From assembly GCA_947306365.1 (NCBI GenBank), contig CAMZGD010000013.1:1-60818 (forward strand): a stretch of DNA of 60,818 bases. The letters run 5' to 3'. Shown here piece after piece: positions 3,981 to 12,954 of the stretch. The position numbers and the translations under genes are program-made. How positions within the stretch are numbered: position 1 is the stretch's first letter; the number at the start of each line of letters is the position of its first letter. The notes under the pieces were generated by a model. It was given only the letters and a program-made list of their open reading frames with translations, did no database searches and was not told where the DNA came from. Origin of the DNA: an uncultured Bacteroidales bacterium. Lineage in GTDB: Bacteria > Bacteroidota > Bacteroidia > Bacteroidales > UBA932.

Positions 3981-4036
3981 GCCCAGGCGCCCCCGCCGGG
4001 CCTAAAAAGGTCCTGTCGCGCGCAGGGATGGGCAGC
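3981..4036. repeat. Dispersed GC-rich repeat, copy B
   Basis: This segment between lpdA and the EEP gene starts with GCCCAGGCGCCCCCG and continues with CGGGC, AAAAGG and CGCGCGC. It aligns at about 80% identity with 11980-12033, inside cbiJ-cbiD. The 21-bp outer inverted repeat of that other copy is not found here, so this looks like a shortened or diverged copy. Confidence 0.6.
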
Positions 4037-11061: not shown

Positions 11062-12954
11062 TTATTCTTCAACAAGAATCAGTGCCAGTTCACCGGCCGT
11101 GGAAGGATACGCCGTAGCGCAGACCCGGAGGCAACGGTCGCGCAACGCCGGAAAGAAGCGGCGGGCATCAGCCTCGTCGAGACGGGTCCACAATTCCCGT
11201 GCAAGCGTCATGTCGTCGATTGCAGCGCAGGCTTCCGGCGAACAGCCTGCCTCCACGGCAATTTCCTTCAGGAAAGACTTGTTCATCACGACGCGCTTGC
11301 TATGGGTGTCCAGGTTCCCTTCTGCGAGTTTCACGGCCTTGCCGACCATGATGCCCATCGTCACTTTCGGAATATGGTGTTCGGCGGCGATCTTCAGCGT
11401 ATCGCCGATGAAATTGCCGTAATGGACGAAAGCTTGCGGCGGAAGGTCGGGAAAACGGCTCCTGAGGTACGCCTCGCTCTTCGCGCCCGAGTTGATGACC
11501 AGATGCGTCACGCCCACGGCGACCGCCACATCGACTTCGCGCCGGATGGACTCGACGAAGGCCTCGTTCGAAAAAGGACGCACGATACCGGAAGTCCCGA
11601 TGATGGAAATGCCGTCCACGATGCCCAGTTTCGGATTGAACGTCCGCTGCGCCAGTTCGCGTCCGCCCGGCACGGAGATGGTCACATCGAGACCGCCGTC
11701 GTAAAGCGCCGACAGGTTCTGTTCCATCATCTGTCGCGGTACCCGATTGATGGCCGGTCCTCCGACCGGGATGCCCAGGCCGGGCAGCGTGACACGGCCG
11801 ACGCCCTCCCCTTGCAAAAAATGGATACCAGGCTCGTCGCTAAAAGCGACCGTGGCCACGATGACGCTGCCGTTCGTCACATCGGGATCGTCACCGGCAT
11901 CTTTGATGACAGTGGCCGTGGCGGATTCCGATAGAGGGCGCTGCGTGTGTTGGCCTGGCGGAGCGGCAGGTTCTTTCAAGCCCAGGCGCCCCCGACGGGC
12001 TTGAAAAGGATCTGACGCGCGCTGGAAAGCAGCGCCCTCTATCGGATTCGGCGACAGGGCGCATTCGGCGACGGGCAGAGAAAGGCGTTCGCCGTCGGGG
12101 AAGAGGACCTCGACGGAATCGTCGACAGGGCGGCCCAGCAGGGCCAGCAGGGCAGCCTTGGAAGCCGCCGTGGCACAGGCGCCCGTCGTAAAGCCGCTGC
12201 GCAAGGGGAAGAAACCGGGGACATGGTGTTCGATGGCTTTGCGCAGGCCGTGCTCACCCGTGACTGTTTCAAAGCCTGCGGGCAGCGCCGGCCGACGGAT
12301 GGCATAGAGCGGCAGGCACGCCGCCTGCGCCGCAGCCACTTTCTGCGAAAAGCCACCCGATTCGCCGCTTTCCTTCGTCAGGATTGCCTGCGGCTGCAGG
12401 CGCGCAATCAAGGCTGCCTCGTCATCTTCTTCATAATAGACCAGCCGCTCCTGCGGAAAGCCCTGCTGCAAAGCCTTTTCGAGCGATTCTTCCCGATGCA
12501 GGATGCGGAACCAGCAATCGTGCCGCTCCCAGTAAGGACGCAACTTCGCGATGGTTTGCACGCCCGTGAGGGCCAGCAGACGCGAGATGCCATCGGCCTC
12601 CAGGCGTCGCACGGCATCGGGATAACCGTCACACCAGCGGATATCCGCTTCCCCGTCGGTGTATGTCCGCTCGACACGGATGACAGGAAGGTCGAGCGAT
12701 TCGGCCACGGAAGCCACCGTCCGGTGCAATTCCGTCGCGAAGGGGTGTGCGGCATCTACCAGCAATCGAATGCCATGCTCCCGGCAGAACGCCGTCATCG
12801 CCGCTTCGTCCATCGCCCCGGTAATGTGCGTCCCGTTTTTACACGCGACCTGCTGCAGGCCGCCGCGCGTAGAGTACCAGTACGGCGAACCCGCCGCATC
12901 GGTCACCCGCACCGCGAGCCGTCCCTCCGTCGTACCGCCGAGAATCAGAATCAT
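11062..12954 (-). CDS. cbiJD: Bifunctional CbiJ-CbiD: cobalt-precorrin-6A reductase and cobalt-precorrin-5B C1-methyltransferase
   Basis: Two sequential corrin-ring enzymes in one 630-residue chain. Residues 1 to about 235 form CbiJ/CobK: MILILGGTTEGRLAV with the NAD(P)-binding glycine motif, VDAAHPFATELHRT and LALTGVQTI. From about 250 the CbiD domain begins with FPLRSGFTTGACATAASKAA, followed by TVIKDAGDDPDVTNG and GTSGIVRPFSNEAF. Between the CbiD segments LPVAECALS and ATATVIKDAG, about 42 residues rich in Pro, Arg and Gly (roughly 303-344) are encoded by an inverted-repeat-bounded insertion that keeps the frame. Activity of the CbiD half may depend on whether this loop is tolerated. The gene overlaps cbiGF by the 4-nt ATGA and is last in the operon. 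Confidence 0.93.
   Translation of the reverse strand: MILILGGTTEGRLAVRVTDAAGSPYWYSTRGGLQQVACKNGTHITGAMDEAAMTAFCREHGIRLLVDAAHPFATELHRTVASVAESLDLPVIRVERTYTDGEADIRWCDGYPDAVRRLEADGISRLLALTGVQTIAKLRPYWERHDCWFRILHREESLEKALQQGFPQERLVYYEEDDEAALIARLQPQAILTKESGESGGFSQKVAAAQAACLPLYAIRRPALPAGFETVTGEHGLRKAIEHHVPGFFPLRSGFTTGACATAASKAALLALLGRPVDDSVEVLFPDGERLSLPVAECALSPNPIEGAAFQRASDPFQARRGRLGLKEPAAPPGQHTQRPLSESATATVIKDAGDDPDVTNGSVIVATVAFSDEPGIHFLQGEGVGRVTLPGLGIPVGGPAINRVPRQMMEQNLSALYDGGLDVTISVPGGRELAQRTFNPKLGIVDGISIIGTSGIVRPFSNEAFVESIRREVDVAVAVGVTHLVINSGAKSEAYLRSRFPDLPPQAFVHYGNFIGDTLKIAAEHHIPKVTMGIMVGKAVKLAEGNLDTHSKRVVMNKSFLKEIAVEAGCSPEACAAIDDMTLARELWTRLDEADARRFFPALRDRCLRVCATAYPSTAGELALILVEE
11924..12049. 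repeat. 126-bp inverted-repeat-bounded insertion inside cbiJD (copy A)
   Basis: Two 21-bp arms, 11924-11944 and 12029-12049, are inverted copies with one mismatch (shared core CCGATAGAGGGCGCTGC). Between them lies a second hairpin with a perfect 10-bp stem, TTTCAAGCCC at 11974-11983 and GGGCTTGAAA at 11997-12006. The segment is exactly 42 codons and sits where CbiD proteins normally run straight into the conserved IKDAGDDPDVT block. Its inner part repeats at 3981-4036. In-frame palindromic elements of this kind resemble Rickettsia palindromic elements in behaviour, but I see no sequence relation. Confidence 0.75.

Follow-up and report, generated by a model that had tools for sequence, protein, structure and literature searches.

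Inverted arms and a folded core inside the cbiJD gene

The window, which is the whole analysed stretch of 60,818 nucleotides from an uncultured Bacteroidales bacterium, carries the gene cbiJD on its minus strand. The Pfam search of the gene product found the domains CbiJ (7e-48) and CbiD (4e-89), and the CbiD match was split into two stretches. Inside the CbiD half lies a segment of 126 bp (11924–12049), which makes 42 codons without a stop and is bounded by two arms complementary over 21 bp with one mismatch. The features of the locus are as follows:

11062..12954, minus strand: host gene cbiJD, CbiJ half followed by CbiD half (630-aa open frame; Pfam)
11944..12029, plus strand: core, the repeated unit, antisense to cbiJD (match to the covariance model R1 of 96.9 bits, which is not independent since the window core is one of the ten rows used to build R1)
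11924..11944 (11918–11944 in the tolerant scan), plus strand: inverted arm, downstream in the gene sense (complementarity; inverted-repeat scan)
12029..12049 (12029–12055 in the tolerant scan), minus strand: inverted arm, upstream in the gene sense (complementarity; inverted-repeat scan)
11963..11969, plus strand: stem P2, 5' side (alignment of ten copies, pair counts)
12012..12018, plus strand: stem P2, 3' side, with one mismatch in the window copy (alignment of ten copies, pair counts)
11969..11973, plus strand: conserved internal-loop motif GGTTC, 5' side (sequence read)
11974..11983, plus strand: stem P3, the inner hairpin, 5' side (perfect 10 bp; pair counts)
11997..12006, plus strand: stem P3, the inner hairpin, 3' side (pairs with 11974–11983)
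3981..4026, plus strand: truncated second copy, with the 3' half of the core alone (46 bp, 85% identity)

A sequence-only reading of this DNA had described the 21-bp arms with one mismatch, the in-frame segment of 42 codons, and the perfect 10-bp inner hairpin, and all of these were reproduced at the positions given above. In a tolerant scan the arms widened to 27 nt (89%) and headed the list of the nine inverted-repeat pairs in the window (at least 16 nt long, at most 200 apart). The 3' internal-loop motif of the window copy, at 12008–12012, reads GGATC. The truncated second copy is located directly upstream of an apparent minus-strand start codon.

The same reading had taken the segment for a small mobile palindromic element with the arms as its ends, and had held that finding the arms nowhere else would speak against this. 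The arm core CCGATAGAGGGCGCTGC has two exact matches in the own genome, both in this segment, and the other four matches listed carry three mismatches; none was found in 148 other genomes of the family at up to one mismatch. The arm sequence, being unique to this site, was dropped as the repeat unit. Meanwhile, the inner ~70 bp of the segment are 77–96% identical to six other full-length places of the own genome, and this comparison is independent of R1. As judged from sequence comparison, the arms are local to this gene copy and the repeated unit is the core of ~86 bp (11944–12029). Since the inside of the segment is a dispersed repeat, the segment is more than a product of chance. The proposed mobile element thus holds for the core, which forms a dispersed family and stands in frame in several genes. 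It does not hold for the arms, which are absent elsewhere, differ between species even at the same site, and are not the terminal repeats of the element.

In the CbiD structure model (mean pLDDT of 84.6), residues 303–340 had pLDDT values below 50 and lay between two strands. They are predicted to form a disordered loop, which fits the survival of the element in permissive loops.

Distribution of the core family

When 151 bp spanning the segment were searched against the own genome, six full-length places and, in addition, shorter pieces were found. The covariance model R1, built from ten aligned copies with a structure drawn by hand, gave 13 matches in the own genome at E ≤ 0.01 and, across the genus, 130 matches in 21 of its 40 genomes. 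The flanks were examined for 126 of these 130 matches; two of the other four lie at contig ends and two near the E limit. With stricter filters, R1 at E ≤ 0.001 found the core in 20 of 299 genomes of the family, all of the same genus, and across the order in one genome of 393, the own one. Under these filters, the core was absent from 259 other genomes of the family and 392 other genomes of the order, the two sets overlapping.

One exact pattern was found in 40 stretches of a collection of 84,980 species, and all the record titles name a Bacteroidales or Bacteroidia bacterium. Many of these titles point to the rumen or the omasum, and we take RUG in the titles to mean rumen genomes. So far, the element has been found in one genus of uncultured Bacteroidales, apparently mostly rumen bacteria. 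The genomes of the genus are draft assemblies, and movement of the element was never seen directly.

Carriage by phages was considered and set aside, as the exact pattern (one, of the main subtype) gave no stretch in viral contigs. The Rfam cmscan of 11 loci gave three weak matches, none of them above the gathering score, which ruled out a curated RNA family as the identity of the core. A description of the element was not found in the titles and abstracts of the open-licence literature.

Covariation of the core stems

The core has a length of 76–88 bp and contains two stems and internal loops. Its outline is nGnGnGnnGGCCTGGTGGAG, then the P2 stem, GGTTC, P3 with its loop, a second GGTTC, the return of P2, CGC, and a short tail. 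In the alignment of ten copies, 92.8% of the cells were paired and 8 of the 21 pairs were altered on both sides, and none of 500 shuffles was as high. One of the five covariation measures, that of further pair types, was matched by 24 of 500 shuffles.

The pairing was also counted in 123 distinct cores and compared with that after the 3' halves had been swapped between copies. P3 was fully paired (8 of 8) in 95 cores, compared with a mean of 20.8 (at most 25) after the swaps, and P2 was fully paired in 80 cores, compared with a mean of 26.2 (at most 35). An automatic search for the best stem, in which a few stems were off target, distinguished 43 P2 pairings among 117 copies and 54 P3 stems among 97. 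Across the copies compared, the core stems are shown to covary.

Ten copies of the genomes G153, G161, G171, and G174 carry the two motifs of a short outer stem, whose bulges are conserved, and all ten are without long arms. The outer-stem copies look recently spread. They often adjoin other repeated motifs (e.g., L204–L209 and L163–L169).

Long arms and the host genes

An inverted-arm score of at least 20 within the 40-nt flanks was taken to define long arms. Long gene-specific arms that touch or nearly touch the core were present in 38 of the 126 copies, and the remaining copies had short arms or none. In the first 90 copies, 30 were long-armed compared with 1.2% when the flanks of different copies were paired, a control that covered 90 of the first 92 copies. 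The idea that every gene copy has long arms was dropped, as the ABC-F and aminotransferase groups include arm-less copies.

Every one of the 38 long-armed copies is enclosed in an open frame, 252–910 aa long, that continues for at least 17 codons on both sides. Pfam domains were found in 16 of the 20 frames scanned and none in the other 4. They comprise CbiJ/CbiD, glycerate kinase with RNase HII, aminotransferase, TrmO, MacB/FtsX, GH43, GntP, cobalamin adenosyltransferase, HI0933-like proteins (2), pseudouridine synthase (2), radical SAM with UPF0004 and TRAM (2), and ABC proteins (2). The hosts with radical SAM, UPF0004, and TRAM were taken as RimO and the ABC-protein hosts as ABC-F. The host genes are unrelated to one another. 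The long-armed copies are 17 sense and 21 antisense, so that neither orientation is favoured; this label follows the longest open frame and is probably wrong for at least one of the 38 (G175:C5:58237), which appears to have been assigned to the wrong strand, as its frame lacks a Pfam domain and its flanks are those of an ABC-F locus.

In one genome (L105, G000:C1), a single open frame encodes glycerate kinase joined to ribonuclease HII. Three of the carrier genes look related to cobalamin (L210, L211, L117, L037), namely cbiJD, the aminotransferase, which may be CobD-like, and the cobalamin adenosyltransferase, and G153 has all three sites on one contig (C145).

Occupied and empty orthologous sites

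Empty sites in CbiD orthologues, which the sequence-only reading had proposed to look for, were found. The CbiJD tree of the genus covers 22 orthologues and omits G166 (incomplete locus) and G164 (partial contig). Ten of the 22 carry the element, five in the sense and five in the antisense orientation, and 12 are without the full element, among them G162, in which an in-frame remnant was read by eye. In all ten carriers the frame is kept and contains no stop. On this tree, presence requires at least six changes and orientation at least three.

The glycerate kinase tree holds 11 of the 24 orthologue loci, the rest being incomplete or without a motif match. In-frame remnants were read by eye in the glycerate kinases of G052 and G161. 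Target-site duplication was not evident by eye when occupied sites of cbiJD and glycerate kinase were compared with empty ones, and the flanks are heavily rewritten. These alignments show that there are related species without the core at the same site and that the frame is preserved in the gene copies examined.

In the glycerate kinase of G159 (L322), the same loop holds an in-frame short palindromic repeat, which by eye has the look of a CGTC-type REP. The glycerate kinase loop therefore seems to accept different repeats. In G175, one copy has a core and near flanks identical to those of G103 (L115/L159) and another to those of G161 (L199/L200), which hints at a mixed assembly or at exchange.

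Both orientations of the core at shared sites

Twenty loci are common to at least two species, and their copies form 103 pairs of the same orientation and 113 flipped pairs. Nine of the 20 loci include a flip, one of them being the HI0933 locus, in which two neighbouring copies are mixed in both G158 and G067, so that some of its five flipped pairs may be false. Of the loci that include an armed copy, 8 of 12 showed a flip, and of those that do not, 1 of 8. As the numbers of species differ between these two sets, this excess is only suggestive of flips going with armed loci.

The cbiJD cores of G160 and G067 match at 78 of 83 positions when one is inverted and at 50 of 83 when they are compared directly. 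These two are sister species (support 100/98), and their cbiJD cores are reciprocal nearest and 94% identical. A flip by assembly is unlikely in this pair because its arms are imperfect. The cbiJD cores of G158 and G172 are reciprocal nearest (0.95) and flipped as well. At the ABC-F site of the sisters G159 and G161, the core matches at 76 of 85 positions inverted and at 59 of 85 directly. The outer gene flanks of this site are common to both species and complementary to each other; the inner arm pairs perfectly over 23 nt in G159 and imperfectly in G161. As the G161 core resembles the G159 core in cbiJD (0.96) more than its own G159 orthologue (0.89), with which it is not reciprocal nearest, a re-insertion is possible at the ABC-F site. 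The inversions between sisters are therefore few, one clear (G160/G067) and one doubtful (G159/G161); in these two sister pairs, two of seven shared loci are flipped and five have the same orientation.

For 44 of the 80 copies at shared loci, nine of them flipped, the nearest foreign core was found at the same locus, compared with 3.8 (at most 11) for random partners. From this we conclude that many cores are inherited in place and that some of them were probably turned later. The compared loci show related species holding the core in opposite orientations at one site.

Turnover of the arms around older cores

The cbiJD cores of G158, G172, and G052 are 88–95% alike, and their arms are unrelated between the species and complementary within each. 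As orthologous cores up to 95% alike have unrelated arms, the arms appear to have changed after insertion. In the ten cbiJD carriers, the 20-nt arms are 57 and 59% identical between species, when random 20-mers are 52% identical, and the core is 73% identical. The gene 30–60 nt outside is 57% identical upstream and 75% downstream. The complementarity of the arms in these carriers is 86% within species versus 58% between species. The five glycerate kinase carriers, which exclude G175 as identical to G103, have arms of 67 and 61% identity, a core of 77%, and an outer gene of 80 and 79%, and their arm complementarity is 92% within species versus 63% between them. The other four gene groups are weaker, with 64–79% within and 52–62% between species; the two ABC-F groups among these lack three copies placed there later, and one of them includes G172:C28, which is paired with another locus. 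The arms are shown to be complementary within species and, at cbiJD and glycerate kinase, nearly unrelated between them.

By eye, the arm on the side of the better conserved protein segment seems native and the opposite one copied. In the window, the downstream arm leads into the conserved ...SATATVIKDAG part of CbiD, and the upstream arm falls in a protein stretch that is variable between species. We therefore infer that the downstream arm was the template side and the upstream arm the copied side. In the cbiJD copy of G159, the outer-stem motif was read by eye on one side and its exact reverse complement on the other, as though one arm had overwritten its partner.

Possible origin of the inversions and arms

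The reading that we prefer, and to which we give about an even chance, is that the core is a non-autonomous mobile hairpin residing in permissive protein loops, much like Rickettsia palindromic elements, and that template switching inverts it and copies its flank. Copies would arrive by means of a trans-acting enzyme and would survive only in protein loops that tolerate ~40 extra residues. The folded core would then make the replicating polymerase switch its template, and a single kind of event would invert the core as the spacer and copy one flank onto the other as its reverse complement. Purifying selection would retain only those events that spare the conserved protein side and the frame, and the element would therefore keep rewriting the codons beside it. 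No benefit of the element to CbiD was shown.

Template switching between inverted repeats is described in a yeast study as producing arm homogenisation and spacer inversion, also in coding genes (PMC8604942), and a second report describes it as creating and maintaining perfect stems (PMC8794818). Both arm homogenisation and spacer inversion are present as sequence patterns at the orthologous sites studied here. Several results count against this reading. The spacer is ~86 bp long, whereas the inverted spacers of the yeast study carried substitutions of only 2–5 bp (PMC8604942). From template switching by itself, one would not expect long arms to be confined to open frames, as they are in all 38 copies. 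Five of the seven shared loci of the sister pairs keep the same orientation, the arms of the other four gene groups pair less well, and the upstream flank of cbiJD is as variable (57%) as the arms. The covariation measure matched by 24 of 500 shuffles and the fruitless search for a mobilising enzyme (none of 30 Y1-transposase loci with the core) count against it too.

Alternatively, the arms could be kept complementary by compensatory mutations, under selection for a folded hairpin of RNA or DNA whose function requires a closed stem. The covarying stems of the core agree with this, and so do the common short closing stem with conserved bulges in the ten copies of G153, G161, G171, and G174 and the three adjacent coupled changes seen by eye between the glycerate kinase copies of G034 and G067. 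However, with 17 sense and 21 antisense armed copies no single RNA would be served, the host genes are unrelated, and arms that are near-random between species around cores of 73–77% identity, as in cbiJD and glycerate kinase, are hard to reach base pair by base pair. We consider such selection an unlikely cause of the arms. It also seems improbable that the arms arise anew with each insertion, e.g., through fold-back copying of the flank at the target, and that the same loops are hit repeatedly in either orientation. This would agree with the changes in cbiJD presence on the tree (at least six), the G161 ABC-F core whose nearest relative stands at another locus of the sister G159, and the palindromic repeat of another kind in the glycerate kinase loop of G159 (by eye). 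It is opposed by the 44 of 80 copies whose nearest foreign core is at the same locus, by the arms that changed around orthologous cores up to 95% alike, and by the G174 copies, in which very similar cores have fixed short arms that are not derived from the target.

Invertible promoters of Bacteroides are turned by recombinases, and a site-specific recombinase inverting the core would likewise leave both orientations at shared loci. The arms, however, have no sequence common to different loci or species and hence offer no common recombination site outside the core, which makes a recombinase highly improbable. The protein would never contain the insert if the segment were cut out of the message or passed over by the ribosome, and long perfect arms would bring the flanks together for this. 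But a removed segment would be free to gain stops and frameshifts, while the ten cbiJD carriers are all in frame without a stop and the 38 long-armed copies are all in open frames. This argument is weakened by the G+C-rich core, many of whose frames are open anyway; even so, we regard removal or skipping as very unlikely.

If template switching is the cause, the core itself might be a cis-acting mutator module, whose conserved fold makes the fork switch template, repeatedly flips the insert, and overwrites the neighbouring codons of each host gene with the reverse complement of the opposite flank. We put this forward tentatively and think it rather doubtful. If true, it would mean a standing, genus-wide source of multi-residue protein change on a mobile element.

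With its orthologous sites, empty sites, remnants, and both orientations, the family offers a natural data set for studying how short-range template switching may rewrite bacterial protein-coding DNA. It suggests that flanking arms may be perfectly complementary without selection on RNA structure. Differences in linkers between orthologues may stem from one mutational event and not from adaptation, and the element appears to act in nature as a source of multi-letter protein changes.

Relation to known systems

Y1 transposase genes above the cut-off were found in 20 of the 21 carrier genomes versus 5 of the 19 non-carriers, a co-occurrence that could reflect shared ancestry. At E ≤ 1, R1 found no match in 30 Y1-transposase loci (of 68 Y1 matches), each of ~3 kb or less. 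A Y1/RAYT transposase was therefore rejected as the mobiliser in spite of its co-occurrence with carriers. Four Y1-type transposase genes (L240, L241, L244, L266) seem to be bounded by hairpins of their own, unlike the core.

REPs are hairpin repeats that are reported to lie sometimes within coding regions of several phyla, the CGTC kind also in Bacteroidetes (PMC3733652). The core resembles these GTAG/CGTC REPs of RAYT systems in being a hairpin repeat found in coding regions. It differs in its ~86 bp, two covarying stems, and GGTTC internal loops, compared with the 20–40 bp of REPs, and, as judged by eye, it has no GTAG/CGTC tag on a 20–40 bp stem.

Correia elements, for which inversion is reported (PMC10969869), and other bacterial MITEs are likewise non-autonomous, multi-copy, and built with inverted repeats. 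The present family has no terminal inverted repeat common to all copies, common short arms being limited to the ten copies of G153, G161, G171, and G174, and its gene insertions examined are in frame. From invertible DNA it differs in having no common recombination site at the arms of its copies. The yeast template-switch repeats (PMC8604942) share with it arm homogenisation and spacer inversion in coding DNA; here, the spacer is a folded mobile element of ~86 bp and not a few bases, and the same site is occupied in either orientation in many species.

The Rickettsia palindromic elements (RPEs), small dispersed palindromic repeats described as lying in frame in unrelated genes (PMC10969869), are similar to the present element, by description, in being multi-copy, palindromic, and in frame in unrelated genes. 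The outer arms are gene-specific here and not common to the copies, and the core stands in both orientations at one site. RPEs are reported to encode a conserved peptide, whereas here both strands are read. Neither ends shared by all copies nor a link to a Y1 transposase was found. We regard the core as a new family of a known kind of element, namely a separate family of in-frame palindromic elements, found in one genus only, with an unusual history of inversion and arm rewriting.
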